A stretch of DNA of 64,000 nucleotides from Halomonas fontilapidosi (lineage in GTDB: Bacteria; Pseudomonadota; Gammaproteobacteria; Pseudomonadales; Halomonadaceae), in contig NZ_JACHXQ010000002.1 in assembly GCF_014192285.1 (NCBI RefSeq), forward strand, positions 344,968 through 408,967, given 5' to 3'. The translations under genes were made by a program, and so were the position numbers. The notes beneath the pieces are model-generated. The model made no database searches. It saw only the letters and a program-made list of their open reading frames with translations, and was not told the origin of the DNA. Positions 46,409 through 59,270 of the stretch are shown here, piece by piece. How positions within the stretch are numbered: position 1 is the stretch's first letter; every line of letters starts with the position of its first letter.

Positions 46409-47785
46409 ATGCCCTCTCACCCCGTCGATGAAGCCCGTGATTTCCTGGCGCGTCATCCCGACGTCGCCAGCATCGACCTGCTGATCAGCGACCTCAATGG
46501 CGTGATGCGTGGCAAGCGCATCCCGCGGGCCAACCTGGAGAAGGCCTATCGTGACGGGGTTAACCTGCCCGCCTCGGTCTTCGCCCTGGATATCCTCGGC
46601 AATACGGTGGAATCGACCGGCCTGGGGCTCGAGACCGGCGACGGTGATCGGGTCTGTCGTCCCGTGCCGGGCACCCTGATGCCGAGCCCCTGGCTGCGCA
46701 ACGGCCGCCAGGCCCAGCTGCTGATGACCATGACCGACGCCGACGGGTCACCCTTCTTCGCCGACCCCCGCCAGGTGCTCGACCGTGTGCTGGAGCGCTT
46801 TCGCCGCGCCAGGCTGACGCCGGTCGTCGCCGTGGAGATGGAGTTCTACCTGGTCGACCGCCAGCGCGATCCGCTGGGGATGGTGCAGCCCCCCTGCTCG
46901 CCGGCCAGCGGTGAGCGTGCCAGCCAGAGCCAGCTCTACTCGATCACTGAACTCGACGAGTATGCGGACTTTCTGGAGGACATCCATGCCGCGGCCCTGG
47001 CCCAGCATCTGCCGCTGGACACGGCCCTCAAGGAGTGCGCCCCGGGGCAGTTCGAGATCAACCTGATCCACTGCGACGATGCCCTGACGGCCTGCGACAG
47101 CGCGGTGCTGCTCAAGCGCCTGATCAAGGGCGTCGCCCTGCACCATGGCTTCGAGGCCACCTTCATGGCCAAGCCCTATGGCCAGGAAGCCGGCAACGGC
47201 ACCCATGTGCATATCAGCCTGCTCGACGAGACCGGAAACAACGTCTTCGCGGCCGAGGACGAGGCCCTGCTCGGCACGCCGCAGATGCGCCACGCCGTGG
47301 CCGGGCTGCTCGAGCTGATGCCGGCCTCGATGGCACTGTTTGCCCCCAACCTCAACTCCTTCCGTCGCTTCCAGCCGGGCCTCTATGTGCCGATGGCGCC
47401 GACCTGGGGCTTCGACAATCGCTCGGTGGCCCTGCGCATCCCCTCGGGGCCCAATGCGGCGCGGCGCATCGAGCACCGCGTGGCCGGCGCCGACGTCAAC
47501 CCCTACCTGCTGCTGGCCGCCCTGCTCAGCGCCATCGATCACGGGATGCAACGCGCCTTGACGCCGCCCCCGGCCATCACCGGCAATGCCTATGACCAGG
47601 TGGCGCCGAGCCTGACCAACAGCTGGTGCCAGGCACTGGCGCTGCTGGAGGAGAGTGAAATCCTCAGCGAGGCGCTGGGGGCAGAATTCGTGCGGGTCTT
47701 CGTGGCCAATCGCCGGGCCGAGCGCGAGCAGACCTTGCAGGCCGTCAGCAAGCTGGAGTACGACTGGTACCTCCGCCACGTCTGA
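46409..47785 (+). CDS. spuB: Glutamine synthetase-like gamma-glutamylpolyamine synthetase (SpuB/PuuA type)
   Basis: The 458-residue GS-fold enzyme shows metal-site motifs EMEFYLVD and KECAPGQFEINL, the ATP/metal segment NGTHVHISL, and the conserved RIEHRVAGADVNPYL. The N-terminal part (DLLISDLNGVMRGKRI) is the PuuA/SpuB pattern rather than that of GlnA. It ligates glutamate to an amine such as putrescine with ATP. The operon context with puuD, spuC and puuC supports polyamine substrates. This window encodes a second GS-like protein at 57903-59270, so the two may prefer different amines. A terminator follows immediately. Confidence 0.87.
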   Translation: MPSHPVDEARDFLARHPDVASIDLLISDLNGVMRGKRIPRANLEKAYRDGVNLPASVFALDILGNTVESTGLGLETGDGDRVCRPVPGTLMPSPWLRNGRQAQLLMTMTDADGSPFFADPRQVLDRVLERFRRARLTPVVAVEMEFYLVDRQRDPLGMVQPPCSPASGERASQSQLYSITELDEYADFLEDIHAAALAQHLPLDTALKECAPGQFEINLIHCDDALTACDSAVLLKRLIKGVALHHGFEATFMAKPYGQEAGNGTHVHISLLDETGNNVFAAEDEALLGTPQMRHAVAGLLELMPASMALFAPNLNSFRRFQPGLYVPMAPTWGFDNRSVALRIPSGPNAARRIEHRVAGADVNPYLLLAALLSAIDHGMQRALTPPPAITGNAYDQVAPSLTNSWCQALALLEESEILSEALGAEFVRVFVANRRAEREQTLQAVSKLEYDWYLRHV

Positions 47786-48666: not shown

Positions 48667-49584
48667 TCAGGCCAGCGTGTCCTGGGGCGAGATGACGGGA
48701 TGGCCTGCCGCCTCATCGACGGCGGGCTCATCAGGCATCAGCGCTTGATGCCCCTCGAGCCAGCGGCGCGTGGCTGCGACCCGATTGAAGGTGAAGACGT
48801 GCAGGCCGACGAAGCCGCCCATGGCATTACCCAGGACGGGCTCCAGCCCCTGCAGCAGGCCATCGGGCTGATAGGGCGAGGGCCGCAGCAGCCGCCTCAT
48901 CCAGCCCGACTGACGGCGCAGCGAACGCACCGAGGGCCCCAGCCCCAGACGCAGGGCGATGGCGAGCAGGCGGGCGGGGTCCATGACCCCGGGAATACCG
49001 GCAAAAACCGGCAGGGTTAGGCCCAGCCGCTGCTGCCGCTCGCGCCAGGCACGCAGCGGCGCCGCCTCGAAGCACAGCTGGGTCACCGCATAGTCGGCCA
49101 GCGCCGCCTTGGCCTCCAGGTCACGCTGCAGCGCGCCCTCGGTCAGCCGCGGATGCCCCTCCGGATAGGCCGGCACCCCGACCCGCTCGGGGCGTGTCGT
49201 CAGGCCCGCCATGTCCTCGAGCAGTGCCAGGCCATGGGGATACTTGCCCAGCGGACGCTCGGCATCGCCGCCCACCACGAAGGCATCCCGGGCGCCCAGT
49301 GCCGCCAGGCGATCCAGCAGCCGCTCCAGATGGGCTCGGTCGTGGACAAGCCGGGCGGCAAGATGCGGAACCACCCGAAACTGCCTTGCCATCAGCCATT
49401 CGCAGGCCTCAAGCGTGCGCTCGAGACCGTGGCGCGGCGAGCAGGTCACGGTGATCACGGCACCCTCGGGCAAGGTCAGCGCCGCATCCTGCATGCCGGC
49501 GATGGGTAGCAGCTCGAAGCGGGTCGCCTGCCTCCGGCGCTGGCCGAACCCCGCTGACAGGGCGGCTCGATTGATATCGTTCAT
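48667..49584 (-). CDS. Methylenetetrahydrofolate reductase-like protein (MetF superfamily)
   Basis: The 305-residue protein shows the MTHFR TIM-barrel pattern: VITVTCSPRHGLERTLE, then FRVVPHLAARLV (the flavin/folate region, PHLA for PHLT), GARDAFVVGGDAERP (equivalent to IxxLRGD), YPEGHPR and ADYAVTQLCFEA. It lies 6 bases after the GcvT-type demethylase gene in a two-gene operon. In LigM and DmdA pathways a MetF-type enzyme oxidises 5-methyl-THF to 5,10-methylene-THF. I infer that role here rather than methionine synthesis. The C-terminal half (about 225-305) is divergent. Confidence 0.8.
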   Translation of the reverse strand: MNDINRAALSAGFGQRRRQATRFELLPIAGMQDAALTLPEGAVITVTCSPRHGLERTLEACEWLMARQFRVVPHLAARLVHDRAHLERLLDRLAALGARDAFVVGGDAERPLGKYPHGLALLEDMAGLTTRPERVGVPAYPEGHPRLTEGALQRDLEAKAALADYAVTQLCFEAAPLRAWRERQQRLGLTLPVFAGIPGVMDPARLLAIALRLGLGPSVRSLRRQSGWMRRLLRPSPYQPDGLLQGLEPVLGNAMGGFVGLHVFTFNRVAATRRWLEGHQALMPDEPAVDEAAGHPVISPQDTLA

Positions 49585-49590
49585 GGCAGC

Positions 49591-50796
49591 TTACCCCTTG
49601 GGTATCTCCTTGCTGGGGTCGTGGAAGGGTTTCTCCACCACGCGGGCCTCCTGCAGGCCGGTATTGGCCTCGATGCGCAGCGGCGTGCCCAGCTCGGCCA
49701 CCTCGACCGGCACCATGGCGTAGCCGATATTGCGCTCCTGGCGCGGCGAGTGAGTGGCCGAGGTCACCTTGCCGATACGCTCGCCTTGGGTATCGAACAC
49801 CGGGAAGACATCGATCATCGAGCCGTCGGTGAAGTAGCCAATCGCGGGCCCATCGATCTCCACACCGACCAGCTTGCGCGATACGCCCTCGGCCTTGATG
49901 CGCTCCAGCGCGGCACGTCCGATAAAGTCGTCATCGCCGCGCAGATCGATCATCCAGTCGTAGCCCATCCCCACCTCGAAGGGGTTGGTGTCGTACCAGA
50001 TGTCACAGCCGAAGGCGAGGATACCGCCCTCGATGCGGCGAATGTGGCAGGGGCCGATGACCTGCATGCCGTGAGGCCGACCGGCCTCGTAGACCCGCTG
50101 CCAGAGTGCCTCGCCGAAGCGGCTGGCCTCGCGCAGGTAGATCTCGTAGCCGATCTCCCCGGAGTAGCCGGTACGCGAGATCACCACCGACATGCCGTCG
50201 AGCTCGGCCTCCATCAGGTGGTAGTAGGGCATGCCCAGCACCGCCTCACCGAACAGGTCCACCATCACTGCCTTGGCCTGGGGCCCCTGGACCTGCACCG
50301 GGGCCACATCCACTTCCCGGATGGTGACGTCGAGGCCGGCGTTGAGCGCCAGGCCCTGGCACCACAGCAGGATGTCGCTGTCGGCGAGCGACAGCCAGAA
50401 ACGGTTCTCCTCGATGCGCAGCAGCACCGGGTCGTTGAGGATGCCGCCATCGGGAGCCGTGACAAACACATACTTGCACTGGCCCACCTGGCAGTGGCGC
50501 ATATCGCGGGGCACGAGCCGCTGGGTGAAGGTGAAGGCATCGGGCCCGCTGATCTCGATCTGGCGCTCGACGCCGACGTCCCACAGAGTCACGCCCTGCA
50601 CCAGGGCCCAATACTCGTCTACCGGGTCGGTGTAGAGGCGCGGATGGTAGTGGTGGTTGTAGACGCTGTACTTGCGCACCCCGTGCCGCTGTGAGGCATA
50701 GAAGAAGGGCGATTTGCGGATGCGCGGATAGAGCAGGATTTCCGGCGCCGATTGGGTGTGCTGAGTGCTCTGAATGCTCTCGATGGCCTGGGACAT
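49591..50796 (-). CDS. GcvT-family tetrahydrofolate-dependent demethylase, DmdA/LigM-like
   Basis: The ATG at 50796 (MSQAIESIQST) has GGAGGAGG 6 bases upstream; the product is 401 residues. The GCV_T domain spans about 45-280 and GCV_T_C about 290-385. Segments such as LWDVGVERQIEISG, LVPRDM, LNDPVLLRI, SLADSDILLW and YNHHYHPRLY resemble DMSP demethylase DmdA from memory more than the glycine-cleavage T-protein. The family transfers a methyl group (from DMSP, or O-methyl aromatics for LigM) to THF. The true substrate is unknown. It forms an operon with the MetF-like gene and is divergent from the FAD/GcvT fusion gene. Confidence 0.78.
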   Translation of the reverse strand: MSQAIESIQSTQHTQSAPEILLYPRIRKSPFFYASQRHGVRKYSVYNHHYHPRLYTDPVDEYWALVQGVTLWDVGVERQIEISGPDAFTFTQRLVPRDMRHCQVGQCKYVFVTAPDGGILNDPVLLRIEENRFWLSLADSDILLWCQGLALNAGLDVTIREVDVAPVQVQGPQAKAVMVDLFGEAVLGMPYYHLMEAELDGMSVVISRTGYSGEIGYEIYLREASRFGEALWQRVYEAGRPHGMQVIGPCHIRRIEGGILAFGCDIWYDTNPFEVGMGYDWMIDLRGDDDFIGRAALERIKAEGVSRKLVGVEIDGPAIGYFTDGSMIDVFPVFDTQGERIGKVTSATHSPRQERNIGYAMVPVEVAELGTPLRIEANTGLQEARVVEKPFHDPSKEIPKG

Positions 50797-50876
50797 GACG
50801 ACCTCCTCCACTGGCGTTTTACTGGGCACCGGCACCCACCGGTCGCCCTGCCTTCGACACTAGTCCCTGTGCCGAA

Positions 50877-50896
50877 CGCCCATCTCACCATGGGCG
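50877..50896. promoter_or_regulatory. Inverted repeat CGCCCAT-N6-ATGGGCG in the divergent gap
   Basis: Perfect 7-bp arms are separated by 6 bases, in the 236-base gap between the demethylase gene and the FAD/GcvT fusion gene. It is a candidate operator or a leader hairpin. Confidence 0.4.
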
Positions 50897-50915
50897 TCGA
50901 GCTTCTTGGTCTGGA

Positions 50916-50940
50916 CGACAGAGTCACCTCGGGTCTGTCG
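50916..50940. promoter_or_regulatory. Inverted repeat CGACAGA-N11-TCTGTCG in the divergent gap
   Basis: Perfect 7-bp arms (50916-50922 and 50934-50940) are separated by 11 bases, typical of a dimeric regulator site. It is about 93 bases upstream of the FAD/GcvT gene and about 120 bases upstream of the demethylase gene. The nearby GlxA-type regulator is the obvious candidate binder, but this is inference. Confidence 0.45.
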
Positions 50941-51032
50941 CCACCGGGCAGGGAGGCGTCGTCGCGTGAAAGCGTGCGGGCAGGGCCCTGTCATATGCTC
51001 GAGGGGAAACCCTCGAACTGAGGAGAATCCCC

Positions 51033-53600
51033 ATGGCGGCGCTACCCTCGCAGGCAGACGCGGTGATCATCGGCCTGGGCGGCATCGTTGGTGCCTCGGT
51101 CGCTCATCACCTGATCGAACAGGGCTGGACGAACCTGGTAGGGCTCGAGAAGTCCGCCCTGCCCTCGGATATCGGCTCCACCGCCCACGCCTCCGACTTC
51201 TGCTTCATGACTTCCCACGACCGCTTGGGTTGCTACACCACCACCTACAGCCAGCGCTTCTTTGCTGCGCTGGGACACTACCGCAAGGTCGGTGGCCTGG
51301 AGGTCGCGCGGGTCGGCGACGAGGCGCGGCTGGCCGAGCTGCAGCGCAAGGTCGCCTCGGGCAAGGCCTTCGGTACCCGGGTGCGCATGATCGATGCCGA
51401 CGAGGCGGTGGAACGCTTCCCGTTGCTGGACAGGGCGCAGGTGCTGGGCGCCATGTGGGACCCCGATGCCGGCCTGGTGGTCCCGCGCTCCCAGCAAGTG
51501 GCGGGGGAGCTAGTCGAGCGCGCCGTGCAGAGCGGCCACCTGCGCGCCTTCGCCGAGACCGAGGCGCTGGATATCGATGTCCGGGATGGCCGGGTCCAGG
51601 GTGTCGAGACAACCAGGGGCTATGTCGCCACCCCGCGCGTCATCGTCACCTCGGGCATCTGGGGCCCGATTCCCGCGGCCATGGGGGGTGCCGCCCTGCC
51701 GCTGATGCCGGTGGAGCATCCGCTGCTGTTCTTCGGCCCCTTCACGGCCTTCGCCGGCACCGGCAAGGAGATCGGCTACCCACTGATGCGCGACCAGGGC
51801 AACTCTGCCTATATGCGCGATACCGGCGACCCGAGCTCCACCGAGGGCGGCCAGCTGGAGTGGGGATACTACGAATCGTGTGAGCCAAGGTTGGTCCCCC
51901 CACGCGACATCCTCGAACGCCATCAGGCACGCCTCTCCCCGTCCATGCGCGACTTGGGGCTGGAGCAGGTAGAAACCGCCTTCGAACGGGCCATCGAGCT
52001 CGCCCCTGTTCTCGGTGAACTGGGCTGGGACGAGAAACACTCCTTCAACGGCCTGCTATCGGTCACCCCGGATGGCGGCTCGCTGGTCGGCGAGGCGCCG
52101 GAGACCCGCGGTCTGTGGCTGTGCGAAGCGGTATGGGTCAAGGACGGCCCCGGCATGGGCAAGCTGCTGGCCGACTGGATGACCCGGGGTCACCCTGAGG
52201 TCGATCCCTGCGGTATCGACATCGCGCGTTTCTACCCCGTGCAGAAGACGCCCCGCCATGTCGTGGGCCGCTGCGAGGAGATCGCCCGCAAGATCTACGA
52301 CCCGCCAGTGCATCCCCGCGAGCCCTTCGAGAGCGGTCGCGACCTTCGCCGCGGCCCCTTCTGGCCGCGCGAGCAGGCGCTGGGAGGCTATTTCATGGAG
52401 GCTGCCGGCTGGGAGCGCGCCCACGGTTATGCCGCCAACGAGACGCGTCTGGCCGGTTATCTCGAAAGGGTGCCAGAACGCCCCGTCGAGTGGGATGCCC
52501 GCCACTTCTGGCGGGTATCCAACGCCGAACAGCTGGCGCTTTCCGACGACGTCGGCATGATCAACCTCTCGCACTTTGCCATCTTCGATATCGCGGGCCG
52601 CGATGCCGAGGCCCTGCTGGAGCGGCTCTCGGTAGCCAAGGTGGGCGGCAATACTCCCGTCGGCAAGGGCGTCTATACCCACTTCCTGGACGCCTTTGGC
52701 GGCGTCCACTCGGATCTCACCATCGTGCGCCTGGGAGCGGAAGCCTGGCGGGTGGTCTGCGGGGGCGATACCGGCCACCGCGACCTGATGTGGATGCTGC
52801 GCCGCGCCGAGGAGTGGGAACTGACCCATTTTCAACTTGAAGATCGTAGCGACGGTCTCGCCACTCTGGGCCTGTGGGGCCCCAACGCCCGACGCACCCT
52901 GCAGGCCCTGGCCGACGATCCCGCAGCCCTCGACGATACGCGCTTTCCTTTCGCCACCGCCCGCGAGATCCGCGTAGCAGGGCTGCCGGTATGGGCGTTT
53001 CGCATCTCCTACGTGGGCGAGCAGGGCTGGGAGCTCTATGTGCCCGCGAGCTACGGCCTGGCGCTCTGGGACCGGCTGTTCGACGCCGGAGTGGTCCCGG
53101 TGGGCATCGAGACCTACGCCAACAGTCGCCGTCTGGAGAAGAGCCTGCGGCTGCAGAACGTCGACCTTCTCACCGACTACAACCTCGTCGAGGCGGGCCT
53201 GGCACGCCCCAGGGTCAAGGACGCGGCCTTCCACGGCAAACCTGCCTACCTGGAGCAACGCGAGCGCAACCAGCAGCCTGCCACGCTTTGCACGCTGGTG
53301 ATGGAGGAACACCACGACAGCACGGGCCGGCCGCGCTTCCCGGTCGGGCAGTCGCCGCTGCTCGACCCCGAGAGCGGCGAGGTACCGGTGGACGCCCTGG
53401 GCCGGCGCTCCTACACGACCAGCATCGCCTATGGCCCCTCGCTTGGGCGCAACATTGCCCTGGCCTACCTGCCTCCCGAATATGCCCGGGAAGGCGGATC
53501 ACTGCTACTCGAATACTTCGCCGAGCACTACCCGATGCGCGTCGCTGCGGTCGGCTATCGCCCCCTCTTCGATGCCGAGAACGCCCGCCCACGGGGCTGA
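51033..53600 (+). CDS. FAD-dependent oxidoreductase/GcvT fusion, dimethylglycine- or sarcosine-dehydrogenase type
   Basis: The 855-residue protein has an N-terminal FAD oxidase domain (about 8-385, Rossmann motif IIGLGGIVGASVA). An FAO_M central domain follows (about 390-445), then GCV_T and GCV_T_C domains (about 450-845). This is the order in dimethylglycine and sarcosine dehydrogenases, where formaldehyde released by oxidative N-demethylation is captured by THF. His52 in GSTAHASDF aligns with the covalent-FAD His of STxHAAG motifs, but the following residues differ strongly (FCFMTSHDRLGCYTTTYS). AGGAGA lies before the ATG. Substrate specificity is unknown; it is divergent from the demethylase operon and convergent with the AraC regulator gene. 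Confidence 0.83.
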   Translation: MAALPSQADAVIIGLGGIVGASVAHHLIEQGWTNLVGLEKSALPSDIGSTAHASDFCFMTSHDRLGCYTTTYSQRFFAALGHYRKVGGLEVARVGDEARLAELQRKVASGKAFGTRVRMIDADEAVERFPLLDRAQVLGAMWDPDAGLVVPRSQQVAGELVERAVQSGHLRAFAETEALDIDVRDGRVQGVETTRGYVATPRVIVTSGIWGPIPAAMGGAALPLMPVEHPLLFFGPFTAFAGTGKEIGYPLMRDQGNSAYMRDTGDPSSTEGGQLEWGYYESCEPRLVPPRDILERHQARLSPSMRDLGLEQVETAFERAIELAPVLGELGWDEKHSFNGLLSVTPDGGSLVGEAPETRGLWLCEAVWVKDGPGMGKLLADWMTRGHPEVDPCGIDIARFYPVQKTPRHVVGRCEEIARKIYDPPVHPREPFESGRDLRRGPFWPREQALGGYFMEAAGWERAHGYAANETRLAGYLERVPERPVEWDARHFWRVSNAEQLALSDDVGMINLSHFAIFDIAGRDAEALLERLSVAKVGGNTPVGKGVYTHFLDAFGGVHSDLTIVRLGAEAWRVVCGGDTGHRDLMWMLRRAEEWELTHFQLEDRSDGLATLGLWGPNARRTLQALADDPAALDDTRFPFATAREIRVAGLPVWAFRISYVGEQGWELYVPASYGLALWDRLFDAGVVPVGIETYANSRRLEKSLRLQNVDLLTDYNLVEAGLARPRVKDAAFHGKPAYLEQRERNQQPATLCTLVMEEHHDSTGRPRFPVGQSPLLDPESGEVPVDALGRRSYTTSIAYGPSLGRNIALAYLPPEYAREGGSLLLEYFAEHYPMRVAAVGYRPLFDAENARPRG

Positions 53601-53607
53601 AGACGTC

Positions 53608-54630
53608 TCAGCCGCCAGGCGACGTGCCCTCTGACGCCGCCAGCTCGGCCATGCGGTCATGGCGGCGCTTGCGCTCGGTACTCGGCGAGTGGCCGAAGTG
53701 GTCGTGGTAACACTTGGTGAAGTGGGTCGGTGAGACGAAGCCGCAGGCCAGTGCCACCTCGGTGATCGGCATCCGGGTCTGCAGCAGCAGCAGCCGCGCA
53801 CGGGCCAGGCGCAGCTCAAGGTAGTACTTGAGCGGGGGGCAACTGACATAGCGCTGGAAGAGGCGCTCCAGCTGGCGACGCGACAGGCCGGCGTAATCGG
53901 CCAGCTCATTGAGCGCCAAGGGTTCCTGGAGATTGGCTTCCATCAGGGTGGCGACTTCCTCCAGCTTGGGATGACTATGCCCCAGGCGCACTCGCAGCGG
54001 GCTGCGCTGGCGATCGCCAACGCCACGGATGCGTTCATGGATGAACTCCTCGGCGATCGCTTCGGCCAGTGCCAGCCCCTGCTGGCGGCTCACCAGGTTG
54101 AGCATCATGTCTAGGGGCGCGATGCCGCCCGAACAGGTATAGCGGTCGCGATCCATGACGAAGAGCTGAGAGGTGAAGGTCACCGCTGGGAAGCGCCGCG
54201 CCTCGTGCAGACTGCCGATGTGCTCCCAGTGCAGGGTGCAGCGATACCCGTCGAGCAGTCCCGCACTGGCCAGTGCATAACCGCCCGTGCACACCGCCCC
54301 CAGGGGAATATGACGCTCGGCCAGACGCCGTAGCCAGTCGAGCGTCGCACGATCGCAGTGCGCCTGCACGTCCACCCCACCGCACACCAGCAGCAGGTCC
54401 AGCTGCGGCATGGGCGCCAATGCCTGGTCCACCGCCGTTGCCAGGCCGCTGCTGGCCGTCACTGCCGTGCCGTCACGGCTCACCAGGTGCCAGGTGTAGA
54501 GCGGGCGATCGGCCAGGTGGTTGGCCATGCGCAGCGGCTCCAGCGCCGAGGAGAAGGCGAGCTGGGAAAACCCCGGCAGCAGCAGAAAGCCGATGTCGTA
54601 ATGGTCCTTGGCCGGTATGGGAGCCTCCAT
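53608..54630 (-). CDS. GlxA/GbdR-type AraC family regulator with DJ-1/PfpI domain
   Basis: The 340-residue protein has an N-terminal DJ-1/PfpI-like sensor domain (about 10-180, with AVCTGGYALASAGLLDG around the usual nucleophile elbow) and two AraC HTH motifs (about 225-320, ALNELADYAGLSRRQLER and ITEVALACGFVSPTHFTKCY). This architecture is that of GbdR, SouR and CdhR, activators of glycine betaine, sarcosine and carnitine catabolism in Pseudomonas. It is convergent with the fusion gene (7-base gap) and divergent from fhs, so it probably controls the one-carbon module. The ligand is not predictable from sequence. Confidence 0.85.
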   Translation of the reverse strand: MEAPIPAKDHYDIGFLLLPGFSQLAFSSALEPLRMANHLADRPLYTWHLVSRDGTAVTASSGLATAVDQALAPMPQLDLLLVCGGVDVQAHCDRATLDWLRRLAERHIPLGAVCTGGYALASAGLLDGYRCTLHWEHIGSLHEARRFPAVTFTSQLFVMDRDRYTCSGGIAPLDMMLNLVSRQQGLALAEAIAEEFIHERIRGVGDRQRSPLRVRLGHSHPKLEEVATLMEANLQEPLALNELADYAGLSRRQLERLFQRYVSCPPLKYYLELRLARARLLLLQTRMPITEVALACGFVSPTHFTKCYHDHFGHSPSTERKRRHDRMAELAASEGTSPGG

Positions 54631-54831
54631 TACCCCTCCTATCTATAGACCGACGCACGACCGCGACGCCCTTGCCTCAGGCATAGCCCATGCCCTCCGC
54701 TGTCGGCAAGGATGGCGTGCCGTCTCGGCTGTCGCTGTGCCCAAGGCTCCCGACGCCGGCAGGCAAGACCGACGCGAGAAGCGCGCAATACTGAACCTGA
54801 CGAGCGGCCTACGTCCAGAGGAGAGATGGCG

Positions 54832-56559
54832 ATGTCACCCCAAGCAACCGAACAGGCCTTGTCCAGGCCCGCCGACAACCTGAGCATCGCCCGCGCGGTG
54901 AGACTCTGGCCCATCGAGGAGATCGCCCACCGCCTGGGGGTACCCGGCGAAGCCGTGGAGCCCTATGGCCGTGGCATTGCCAAGCTCGACCTGACGGCCA
55001 TGACGGCGCTCGCCGAGCGTCCACGCGGACGCTACGTAGTGGTCACCTCGATGACCCCGACGCCGCCCGGTGAGGGCAAGACCACCACCGCCATCGGCCT
55101 GGTCCAGGGGCTGCAGCGGCTCGGCCACACCGCTACCGTGGCCCTGCGCCAGCCCTCCATGGGGCCGACCCTGGGCCTCAAGGGAGGCGCCACCGGCGGC
55201 GGCTACAGCCAGGTCCTGCCCATGGAACGCATCAACCTGCACCTGACTGGCGACATACACGCGGTGGGGGCGGCTCACAACCTGCTGGCGGCCATGGTCG
55301 ACAATCACCTCCACCACCGTCTGGAACCCGAGCTCGATCCTCGCGAGGTACGCTGGCAGCGGGTCATCGACCTCAACGACCGCGCCCTGCGGCATCTGGT
55401 CATGGGCCTCGGCGGGCGCGGTGACGGCATTCCCCGCCAGGGCGGCTTCGAGATCACCGCCGCCTCGGAGGTGATGGCGGTGCTGGCACTGGCAGACTCG
55501 CTGGTCGATCTGCGTCGGCGCCTGGGCCGGGTGATCGTGGGCCTGGACCGCAGCGGCGCGCCGGTCACCGCCGAGCAGATTGGTGCCGCCGGTGCCATGA
55601 CGGTGCTGCTCAAGGAAGCCCTCAAGCCCAACCTGCTGCAGACCCTGGAACATGCCCCGGCGCTGATCCACGCCGGCCCCTTCGGCAACATCGCGCATGG
55701 CAACTCCTCGATCGTCGCCGACCACATTGGCCTGCATGCCGGCGATTTCGTGGTCACCGAGGCGGGGTTCGGAGCCGACATGGGCGCCGAGCGTTTCTTC
55801 AACATCAAGTGCCGGGCCTCGGGCCTCGTGCCGGATGCGGCGGTGCTGGTGGTGACCGTGCGGGCCATGAAATACCACAGCGGCCGCCACCAGGTGGTAC
55901 CCGGCCAGCCGCTGCCCGCCTCGCTGCTGGCGGAATCCCCCGATGAGGTGCGCGAAGGCGGCGCCAACCTGCTCAAGCAGATTGACAACGTACGCGCCCA
56001 CGGCCTCAACCCGGTGGTGGCGATCAATGCCTTCCCCAGCGACCATGCCAGCGAGGTCGACGCCATTCGCGAACTGGCGGCCTCGGTGGGCGTGCGCGCC
56101 GAACTCTCCCGCCATGTGAGCGACGGTGGCGAGGGCGCCCTGGCCCTGGCAGAGGCGGTGGCCGAAGCGGCCGAGGCCGGCGGCGACTTTCGGTTCCTCT
56201 ACCCCGCCGAGATGCCGCTGACGGCCAAGATAGAGCGCATCGCCACGCGCCTCTACGGGGCGGAAGGGGTCGATTTTGCGCCGGGCGTCCGCGCGCGGCT
56301 GGAGGCCTGGGAACATGAGGGATATGGCGACCTGCCGGTATGTATCGCCAAAACGCACATGTCGCTGTCCTCCGACCCGGCCAGGCTCGGTGCTCCCACG
56401 GGCTGGCGGCTGCCGGTTCGCGAGGTGCGCCTCTCGGCCGGCGCCGGCTTCGTTTACGCCCTGGCCGGCGATATCCGCACGATGCCCGGCCTCAACGCCT
56501 CGCCGGCCGCCACCCGGCTGGATATCGACGACGAGGGCAATACCGTCGGACTCTACTGA
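54832..56559 (+). CDS. fhs: Formate-tetrahydrofolate ligase
   Basis: The 575-residue enzyme has the N10-formyl-THF synthetase P-loop TPTPPGEGKTTT (residues 75-86), followed by MGPTLGLKGGATGGGYSQV. The ATG at 54832 has GAGGAG 8 bases upstream; another ATG at 54826 is nearly on top of that site and less likely. It interconverts formate, ATP and THF with 10-formyl-THF. Running in reverse it could yield ATP while disposing of one-carbon units released by the neighbouring demethylation enzymes. It ends 2 bases from the convergent puuB. In LigM-type pathways an Fhs partner is also present. Confidence 0.93.
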   Translation: MSPQATEQALSRPADNLSIARAVRLWPIEEIAHRLGVPGEAVEPYGRGIAKLDLTAMTALAERPRGRYVVVTSMTPTPPGEGKTTTAIGLVQGLQRLGHTATVALRQPSMGPTLGLKGGATGGGYSQVLPMERINLHLTGDIHAVGAAHNLLAAMVDNHLHHRLEPELDPREVRWQRVIDLNDRALRHLVMGLGGRGDGIPRQGGFEITAASEVMAVLALADSLVDLRRRLGRVIVGLDRSGAPVTAEQIGAAGAMTVLLKEALKPNLLQTLEHAPALIHAGPFGNIAHGNSSIVADHIGLHAGDFVVTEAGFGADMGAERFFNIKCRASGLVPDAAVLVVTVRAMKYHSGRHQVVPGQPLPASLLAESPDEVREGGANLLKQIDNVRAHGLNPVVAINAFPSDHASEVDAIRELAASVGVRAELSRHVSDGGEGALALAEAVAEAAEAGGDFRFLYPAEMPLTAKIERIATRLYGAEGVDFAPGVRARLEAWEHEGYGDLPVCIAKTHMSLSSDPARLGAPTGWRLPVREVRLSAGAGFVYALAGDIRTMPGLNASPAATRLDIDDEGNTVGLY

Positions 56560-57902: not shown

Positions 57903-59270
57903 CTACACCCTCAGCAGCAGGTGCTCGCGTTCCCAGGAACTGATGACCTGGAAGTAGGCGCGGTGTTCGGCACGCTTGACGGCCAGGTAGCTATGGGTGA
58001 AACGCTCGCCGAGGATATCGGCCAGCGGCTGACAATCGTGCAGCAGATCCAGTGCCGGCCCGATATCGTCGGGCAGCTTGTTGCCGCCTGACCACGCAGA
58101 GCCGGTCATCGGCGGGCGCGGTTCGAGACGACCCAGCAGGCCCAGATAGCCGCAGGCCAGCGACGCCGCCATGACCAGGTAGGGGTTGGCATCCGCCCCC
58201 GCCAGGCGGTTCTCGACCCGCGTCGCCTCGGGCGATGACACCGGCACGCGCAGACCCACGGTGCGGTTGTCCATGCCCCACTCCACGTTGATCGGGGCCG
58301 AGCCGCTGGTCTCGGTGCGCATCAATCGACGGTAGGAGTTGACGTTGGGCGCCAGCAGCGGCATCACCGCGGGCAGGTAGCGCTGCAGCCCGCCGATGAA
58401 GTGGTGGAACAGCTGGCTGGGCTGGCCGTCCGCGTCGGCGAAGACGTTGTGCCCGTCCTTGGCGTCGAGCAGGCTCTGGTGGATATGCATGGAGCTGCCC
58501 GGCTCATTGGCCATGGGCTTGGCCATGAAGGTGGCATACATGCCGTGGCGCAGCGCCGTCTCGCGCAGGGTACGCTTGAACATCACCACCTGGTCGGCAA
58601 GGGTCAAGGGGTTGCCATGCTGGAAGTTGACTTCCATCTGGCCGGCGCCCTCCTCGTGGATCAGGGTGTCGAGGTCCAGGTTCATGGCTTCGCAGTAGTC
58701 GTACATCTCCTCGAACAGCGGGTCGAACTCGTTGACCGCATCGATGGAGAAGGACTGGCGGCTGCTCTCCTGGCGGCCGGTGCGACCGATCGGCGGCTCC
58801 AGCGGGTAGTCGGAATCGGTATTGGTCTTGACCAGGTAGAACTCCACTTCCGGCGCGATCACCGGCGTCCAGCCGCGGGCGGCGTAGAGCTCCAGCACCC
58901 GCTTCAGCACATGGCGCGGCGCCAGTTCGACCGGTTCCCCGGTCAGGTAGAAGCAGTCATGGATGATCTGCGCCGTGGGATCCTCGGCCCAGGGCACCAG
59001 GTAGATGGCGCTCGAATCGGGCACCAGTTCCATGTCGCGCTCGGCGGGATTCCAGAAGCGGATGTCCTCGTCATCGGGATAGCCGCCGGTGACGGTCTGG
59101 ATGAAGATCGAATCGGGCAGCCGCGGTCGGCCGCCGTTGAGGTACTTGCCGGCGGGCATGATCTTGCCCTTGAGGATGCCGGTCAGGTCGCTGACCAGGC
59201 ACTCGACCTCGGTAATGCCGTGACGCTGGAACCAGTCGTTGAGGAGCGGCTGCTCCTGTCGGTTACTCAT
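57903..59270 (-). CDS. puuA: Glutamine synthetase-like gamma-glutamylputrescine synthetase
   Basis: The 455-residue GS-fold enzyme has EVEFYLVK, HEEGAGQMEVNF and the substrate-site SSMHIHQSL, with RVENRLAGADANPYL in the C-terminal half. The N-terminal CLVSDLTGILKGKIMPAG pattern is PuuA-type. It differs in sequence from the spuB-type protein at 46409-47785, so the two are paralogues with probably different amine preference. It lies 57 bases after potF with a strong hairpin between. Confidence 0.88.
   Translation of the reverse strand: MSNRQEQPLLNDWFQRHGITEVECLVSDLTGILKGKIMPAGKYLNGGRPRLPDSIFIQTVTGGYPDDEDIRFWNPAERDMELVPDSSAIYLVPWAEDPTAQIIHDCFYLTGEPVELAPRHVLKRVLELYAARGWTPVIAPEVEFYLVKTNTDSDYPLEPPIGRTGRQESSRQSFSIDAVNEFDPLFEEMYDYCEAMNLDLDTLIHEEGAGQMEVNFQHGNPLTLADQVVMFKRTLRETALRHGMYATFMAKPMANEPGSSMHIHQSLLDAKDGHNVFADADGQPSQLFHHFIGGLQRYLPAVMPLLAPNVNSYRRLMRTETSGSAPINVEWGMDNRTVGLRVPVSSPEATRVENRLAGADANPYLVMAASLACGYLGLLGRLEPRPPMTGSAWSGGNKLPDDIGPALDLLHDCQPLADILGERFTHSYLAVKRAEHRAYFQVISSWEREHLLLRV

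Follow-up and report, generated by a model that had tools for sequence, protein, structure and literature searches.

Known demethylation routes and a five-gene module in Halomonas

Few osmolytes are as abundant in saline and marine settings as glycine betaine, and to our knowledge the known routes for removing its first methyl group require oxygen (GbcAB), homocysteine (Bhmt) or cobalamin (MtgBCD). Here we describe five genes at 48667-56559 of a 64-kb window (the whole stretch of DNA that was analysed, part of contig C2 of a 3.6-Mb genome whose nearest relatives are Halomonas). They encode a GcvT-like methyltransferase, a methylenetetrahydrofolate reductase (MTHFR), a fusion of flavin adenine dinucleotide (FAD)-binding and GcvT domains, a GbdR-type regulator and a formate-tetrahydrofolate ligase (Fhs). 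The module is real and widely shared, and it joins three familiar parts of folate metabolism (methyltransferase, MTHFR and Fhs) to dimethylglycine oxidation, which is equally familiar. From sequence comparison we lean towards the view that it serves the folate-linked removal of methyl groups from glycine betaine.

Several described systems resemble the module in part. DmdA, from Pelagibacter ubique (3tfh) and Roseobacter, shares with the GcvT-like protein the GcvT fold, an NDPV motif and a proposed redox-neutral methyl transfer to tetrahydrofolate (THF), but differs in its tree group, in its S-K-Q signature and in lacking a partner of the dimethylglycine oxidase type. The LigM/DesA-MetF-LigH system of Sphingobium SYK-6 follows the same logic of methyltransferase, MetF and formate-THF ligase, and the solved structure nearest to the window MTHFR (7xg9) is one which we take to be of SYK-6 origin; however, no aromatic catabolism genes were seen among those read. 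The dimethylglycine oxidase of Arthrobacter globiformis (1pj5) has the same FAD-GcvT architecture as the fusion. The GbcAB-DgcAB-SoxBDAG route of Pseudomonas and Halomonas, controlled by GbdR, has the same proposed substrate and intermediates and the same type of regulator, but begins with a Rieske monooxygenase, whereas the module would begin with a methyltransferase and keep the methyl group on folate. Cobalamin-dependent MtgBCD (PMC12478193) and Bhmt likewise remove the first methyl group without oxidation; in the module a single GcvT-family protein would do so, and no corrinoid protein or homocysteine methyltransferase was present among the genes read. The sections of the 2025 MtgBCD paper available to us name GbcAB, Bhmt and MtgBCD (PMC12478193).

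The sequence-only reading, an earlier annotation of this DNA made without database searches, knew of no described pathway with exactly this set, a statement that is valid for that precise combination alone. Folate-linked catabolism of glycine betaine and dimethylglycine in Arthrobacter was reportedly described by Meskys in 2001, an earlier precedent for part of the set that limits the claim to novelty. In 2011, a comparative study of haloarchaeal genomes also noted dimethylglycine oxidase beside a BCCT transporter and raised the use of glycine betaine; the portions available to us do not mention the GcvT-like gene (PMC3102087). The nearest earlier idea found is in a SAR11 paper which, in the part available, postulated a possible role in glycine betaine metabolism for a GcvT-like gene lying close to genes for glycine betaine transport, and which also reported a DmdA-like gene beside metF. 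From partial texts, a Rubrobacter lignin paper concerns DesA-like proteins (PMC9296663), and a THF-dependent demethylase acts on dicamba (PMC9404685). Among the open-access matches listed, no title or abstract opening described a GcvT-family glycine betaine:THF methyltransferase, subscription papers being mostly outside that scope.

The GcvT-like protein appears to form its own subfamily

The GcvT-like protein (49591-50796, minus strand; 401 aa from the ATG at 50796) matched Pfam GCV_T and GCV_T_C at 137.6 and 58.8 bits, both above the cut-offs, which places it in the GcvT-fold superfamily; the best GCV_T match of the genome lies elsewhere (C1:211830). The best NCBIfam model was PRK12486, the dimethylsulfoniopropionate (DMSP) demethylase, at 330.3 bits and thus below its curated cut-off of 410. 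Scores against the LigM/DesA models NF047885 and NF047633 were 49 of 580 and 70.7 of 800 bits, and those against the NCBIfam GcvT models (177.6, 165.1 and 131.4 bits) also fell short of the cut-offs of 300, 235.85 and 459.

In a tree of 47 rows that included METHYLTRANSFERASE, the GcvT-like protein, and in which long branches were flagged, the window-type and actinobacterial proteins grouped together at 92/97 and the haloarchaeal relatives joined them at 91/91, both values being below the tool's star. The three DmdA rows, the only ones in the tree, formed a separate 100/99 clade with L090 beside it and the window protein outside, and the GcvT, SoxA and fusion domains were placed elsewhere than the GcvT-like group. 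The NDPV motif is present in the GcvT-like protein and DmdA, with DD at the same place in the AMT rows. The stretch corresponding to P. ubique 195-200 reads T-G-Y-[ST]-[GAS]-E in 26/26 module rows, against S-G-[WY]-S-K-Q in DmdA, a mark that is our own reading of the three DmdA rows. Residue W197 (171 in the available part of PMC7487153, the mapping being ours) was not used alone as a marker for DMSP, since two Roseobacter DmdA proteins, to which the GcvT-like protein is about 36% identical, also have Y there; the equivalent residue of the GcvT-like protein is Y211. A variable block at 247-250 reads IGPC in the window protein and GHTS in the paralogue type.

Because the GcvT-like protein lies under the NCBIfam cut-offs for DmdA, LigM/DesA and GcvT, falls outside the DmdA clade and is without S-K-Q, we claim no membership of a named family for it. 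It most likely works like DmdA, and it appears to form a subfamily of its own that is common to halomonads, Ectothiorhodospiraceae and Actinomycetota and, more distantly, haloarchaea. A folate-only route for glycine betaine would give a function to genes that so far carry only the label 'glycine cleavage T C-terminal barrel domain-containing protein' or 'glycine cleavage system protein T'. A place inside the DmdA or LigM clades, which would have counted against the sequence-only reading, was not observed: the protein stood apart from DmdA in the tree with its three rows and from LigM/DesA on scores.

The PRK12486 match and the shared NDPV motif favour the alternative in which the GcvT-like protein demethylates the sulfonium DMSP, the fusion is a separate dimethylglycine dehydrogenase and the two are clustered since both feed the folate pool. 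We regard this as improbable: the score and tree position place the protein apart from DmdA, S-K-Q is missing, and no dmdB- or dmdD-like gene was found among the genes read at the locus. A second paralogue, 50-52% identical, lies on contig C14 of the same genome (L067:11126-12295) beside Lrp, PurU, FolD and BCCT, and its relatives adjoin OsmC, enoyl-CoA hydratase and, in six loci, an acyl-CoA synthetase that shares 47-50% identity with DmdB. Genes of this second type (49-54% identical to the window gene; loci L067 on G000 contig C14, L081, L089 and L099-L103) occur in 28/250 family genomes among the matches listed. Since it is the second paralogue's relatives, and not those of the window gene, that sit with DmdB-like acyl-CoA genes, a sulfonium substrate is less likely for the window gene. 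The original proposal of a 'sulfonium, betaine or methylated amine' can be narrowed: the evidence points to a methylated amino acid of the N-methyl kind, with glycine betaine as the likeliest candidate. In our reading the second paralogue represents the putative sulfonium (DMSP) branch and the window gene the putative ammonium one; the second type is perhaps an unrecognised type of DMSP demethylase.

Distinct lineages of the dimethylglycine oxidase type accompany the GcvT-like gene

The FAD-GcvT fusion (51033-53600, plus strand; 855 aa) has the DAO-FAO_M-GCV_T-GCV_T_C architecture of the dimethylglycine dehydrogenase/oxidase type and matched the A. globiformis dimethylglycine oxidase over its full length (E 6.9e-108). 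The residues equivalent to H48, H225, Y259 and D552 of 1pj5, which we assume to be functional, are kept in 24/24 fusion rows. The Halomonas protein shares no more than 34% identity with the A. globiformis enzyme and represents another lineage, being 59-61% identical to alphaproteobacterial proteins. Beside the GcvT-like gene of Actinomycetota, six of the eight fusions aligned were 52-57% identical to the A. globiformis oxidase and grouped with it at 100/99, and the other two (L044 and L048) were of a third kind, 37% identical to it. The Thalassospira marina relative of the Halomonas fusion (60% identical) lies in a cluster with a GbcA-like Rieske protein, a GbcB-like reductase, BCCT, a GlxA-family regulator, ETF, PurU, GlyA and SoxBDAG; a Celeribacter relative adjoins a GlxA-family regulator, ETF, PurU and FolD, and the Sinorhizobium and Paracoccus relatives have no such context. 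We propose that the window fusion is a dimethylglycine dehydrogenase that makes methylene-THF. The presence of distinct dimethylglycine oxidase lineages beside one methyltransferase subfamily suggests that dimethylglycine is the likely shared intermediate, with glycine betaine as its natural source; the most likely role of the GcvT-like enzyme is then to pass the first methyl group of glycine betaine to THF.

The actinobacterial orthologues of the GcvT-like protein are 61-69% identical to it (Rubrobacter, Actinopolyspora, Saccharopolyspora, Nesterenkonia and Brachybacterium), and their genes lie downstream of the FAD-GcvT gene. In the ten loci flanked by 5 kb or more on both sides, a fusion was found in nine, MTHFR in eight, Fhs in eight and an IclR regulator in nine. 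Seven of the ten also carry a sarcosine-oxidase-type enzyme, either SoxAB (L041 and L042) or an MSOX-like protein, the five loci of the latter kind having a second GcvT-like protein (AMT) as well. FolD and 5-formyl-THF cyclo-ligase occur in L047 and L049, an FchA-like protein in L046, L053 and L054, and a betaine-type BCCT, below the NF047988 cut-off of 650 bits, in L046 (622 bits) and L049 (400 bits from a partial frame).

Haloarchaeal relatives of the GcvT-like protein, encoded on plasmids, are 43-44% identical to it. All four haloarchaeal loci read contained the GcvT-like gene, MTHFR and one or two fusions, accompanied by IlvA in three, GlyA in one and BCCT in one (H. hispanica). Conversion of glycine to serine and then to pyruvate is given as a known end of the route in the available part of PMC12093977. 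A cysteine-synthase-like pyridoxal phosphate protein lies between the dimethylglycine oxidase and GcvT-like genes at L047:7971-8945, at L049:8940-9914 and in L051 (Rubrobacter); the Rubrobacter protein is possibly a serine dehydratase like haloarchaeal IlvA.

The five genes recur together and share a divergent-promoter motif

A genome scan gave 55 loci, and neighbouring genes were sought by tblastn in the 37 from halomonads and Ectothiorhodospiraceae. All five genes were present in 24/37 and the GcvT-like gene and fusion together in 34/37; the remaining three (L040, L058 and L062) have their match at the end of a contig, and two further loci, L023 and L057, stop short of the regulator and Fhs. 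Given this recurrence, the arrangement is more than chance, and the five genes are real and adjacent. The window-type gene (at least 87% identical) occurs in 33/250 family genomes among the matches listed. Co-occurrence was followed in 34 of the 250, comprising 16 of these 33 and 18 of the other 217: a fusion of at least 78% identity was found in 16/16 genomes with the window-type gene, against one of at least 60% in 2/18 without it, one more having a partial match of 34%. The sequence-only reading had placed five genes together here and joined a THF methyl-transfer arm (GcvT-like protein, MTHFR and Fhs) to an oxidative N-demethylation arm (the fusion). All five genes and their coordinates were confirmed, the gene order it had asked about recurs in relatives, and the two arms proved to be co-conserved far beyond Halomonadaceae.

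The GcvT-like gene is followed 6 bp downstream by that for MTHFR (48667-49584, minus strand; 305 aa), and the two look like one operon. The reductase matched PF02219 at 37.8 bits (gathering score 24) but missed the equivalog TIGR00676 (48.9 against 293.7 bits); 7xg9 matched at E 1.4e-32 and the next structure, 1v93, at about 1e-10. The fusion is divergent from this pair, and the regulator (53608-54630, minus strand; 340 aa, DJ-1/PfpI and AraC domains) is divergent from Fhs (54832-56559, plus strand; 575 aa), which matched NF010030 at 769.6 bits (cut-off 652) and PF01268 at E 1.3e-236.

Alignment of the two divergent intergenic regions revealed a common 28-bp operator-like motif, TGTCG-N6-CCAAG-N5-CGACGCC, at 50893-50920 (minus strand), between the GcvT-like and fusion genes, and at 54730-54757 (plus strand), between the regulator and Fhs. 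The second copy falls inside a longer reading of Fhs from 54712, so that its start is probably the ATG at 54832. With up to three mismatches, the motif was found in 27/35 GcvT-like/fusion and 32/33 regulator/Fhs intergenic regions, the window included, compared with an average of 0.42 matches in shuffles of the 64-kb window. At this threshold the pattern is unspecific genome-wide (110 matches, against 27 for the reversed pattern), and the exactness of the window sites is by construction, as they served as the template for the pattern. The informative evidence is therefore the recurrence in relatives and the finding that only the two window sites match with fewer than two mismatches in the whole genome. 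The five genes are probably one regulon in Halomonas.

The regulator scored 434.1 bits against the GbdR model NF052371 (cut-off 480) and is one of four GbdR-type proteins in the genome, one of the four having an in-frame stop; its nearest paralogue, at G000:C4:18185, is 52% identical. GbdR is induced by glycine betaine and dimethylglycine according to the available part of PMC12093977. The local regulator may bind the 28-bp motif.

A proposed folate-only route

In the route that we propose, the GcvT-like enzyme would convert glycine betaine and THF to dimethylglycine and 5-methyl-THF, moving the methyl group directly from the quaternary ammonium without oxygen or cobalamin. The fusion, by analogy with its homologues, would oxidise dimethylglycine to sarcosine and place the one-carbon unit on 5,10-methylene-THF, and MTHFR, judging from its family, would run in the oxidative direction from 5-methyl-THF to 5,10-methylene-THF. 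Housekeeping FolD and the local Fhs could then turn methylene-THF into formate and ATP, and sarcosine would be oxidised outside the module in cells that possess SoxBDAG. The regulator, if it behaves like GbdR, would sense glycine betaine or dimethylglycine and act on both divergent promoters through the shared motif.

We give a little less than an even chance to the wider claim that a GcvT-family glycine betaine:THF methyltransferase exists across halophilic Gammaproteobacteria, Actinomycetota and haloarchaea, as the first known enzyme to move a quaternary-ammonium methyl group directly to THF and with DMSP demethylase as its sulfonium cousin. Confirmation of the claim would mean that glycine betaine undergoes a new kind of chemistry in the first step. 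The route would retain the methyl group for NADH and ATP while running without oxygen or vitamin B12, and the methyltransferase gene would serve as a marker of how osmolytes are turned over in hypersaline soils, in salterns and by haloarchaea.

Evidence weighing against glycine betaine

A number of observations weigh against this assignment, the first being that we know of no enzyme that passes a quaternary-ammonium methyl group directly to THF. In 8/34 loci (L011, L012, L013, L024, L027, L031, L032 and L034), no MTHFR is present within 1.3 kb beyond the GcvT-like gene. A 40-residue MTHFR remnant adjoins the GcvT-like gene at L012:11261-11377, and the reductase gene appears to be degenerating in some members of the genus. 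That MTHFR can be dispensed with in these loci is what speaks for a purely oxidative route, in which the fusion does the work of a dimethylglycine dehydrogenase, with the GcvT-like protein either forming methylene-THF together with another oxidase or playing an accessory part. We consider this very improbable. The GcvT-like gene occurs with the fusion in 16/16 genomes and its product is more conserved across phyla than the fusion (61-69% against 33-42%); it carries NDPV rather than the DD of the AMT rows, which we took as methylene-forming; and MTHFR is kept in 26/34 loci, in 8/10 actinobacterial loci and in the four haloarchaeal ones, which fits a 5-methyl-THF product.

The window genome, furthermore, appears to be covered for glycine betaine already. 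It carries GbcA and GbcB above the NCBIfam cut-offs, SoxB above its cut-off and, near the 52% GbdR-type paralogue, a 690-aa Oxidored_FMN protein which we take to be DgcA-like, NCBIfam giving only other families for it, below cut-off. GbcA was missing in 7/29 genomes with the module and 5/44 without it, a weak difference within one genus, and one more of the 44 had a GbcA fragment only; the DgcA-like protein was missing in the same seven module genomes and in 7/44 of the others. Those seven had SoxB at 87% identity in three cases, a relative of 44% in one and none in three, leaving sarcosine without its usual enzyme in three to four module genomes, and four of the five module-less genomes without GbcA still had SoxB. 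The idea that the module replaces GbcA was accordingly rejected, the 7/29 against 5/44 being weak and SoxB retention failing to separate the groups. In a partly overlapping set, GbcA was missing in 6/34 halomonad locus genomes. One halomonad with no GbcA match is H. icarae (L020), whose coordinates agree with those of G210, a genome that lacks a DgcA-like match and retains SoxB at 87%. Of 15 actinobacterial module genomes searched, six had a protein resembling GbcA (198-343 bits, in two cases in pieces); on the other side, the five named actinobacterial isolates gave no GbcA match above 150 bits, which speaks for the assignment. Two genomes with the module have a GbcA frame interrupted by one in-frame TGA, namely G006 (L018, Halomonas halodenitrificans) and G286 (L019, with the same coordinates as G158). 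Lastly, no betaine transporter was seen adjoining the module among the ten window genes profiled.

The Thalassospira cluster, too, is no more than a probable glycine betaine cluster, since its Rieske protein, for which GbcA was the best model, reached 440 bits of a cut-off of 670 (44% identity to the GbcA of the window genome) and its reductase, with GbcB as the best model, 369 of 500. These two scores slightly reduced our confidence in glycine betaine, for which we keep a leaning, and in the wider claim of a GcvT-family glycine betaine:THF methyltransferase, and raised by a little that in the same chemistry acting on another betaine, such as proline betaine, beta-alanine betaine or gamma-butyrobetaine, with the fusion demethylating the resulting N-methyl amine. 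That explanation, which we still think rather unlikely, would also accommodate the glycine betaine genes already in the window genome, the status of the regulator as a 52% paralogue, the three module genomes with none of GbcA, the DgcA-like protein and SoxB, and the setting of the Halomonas module among genes of the putrescine/gamma-aminobutyric acid type. It fits less well with the distinct fusion lineages, of which one is 52-57% identical to a known dimethylglycine oxidase and another is related to a protein whose gene clusters with GlyA and SoxBDAG, or with the SoxAB or MSOX-like neighbours in 7/10 actinobacterial loci, and the polyamine flank is not conserved.

Flanking genes and further relatives

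Polyamine genes of the Puu/Pot type flank the module on both sides in the window, as do two different glutamine-synthetase-like proteins (46409-47785 and 57903-59270), both below the cut-off for gamma-glutamylputrescine synthetase. We considered the flank as part of the module, with N-methylputrescine or gamma-butyrobetaine as substrate, and excluded it from the system because it is missing in L033, L035 and L037 and no actinobacterial locus has a Puu/Pot set. A PHROGs scan gave no match.

At L056:4144-5991, a frame that by our own reading resembles an MttB-type corrinoid-dependent methyltransferase adjoins two FAD-GcvT frames and a GcvT-like relative of 53% identity. A third DmdA-like subfamily, 42-48% identical to the window gene, occurs in 21/250 family genomes among the matches listed, and in three (L095, L096 and L098) of the six loci read, L093-L098, an MTHFR-like gene adjoins it.

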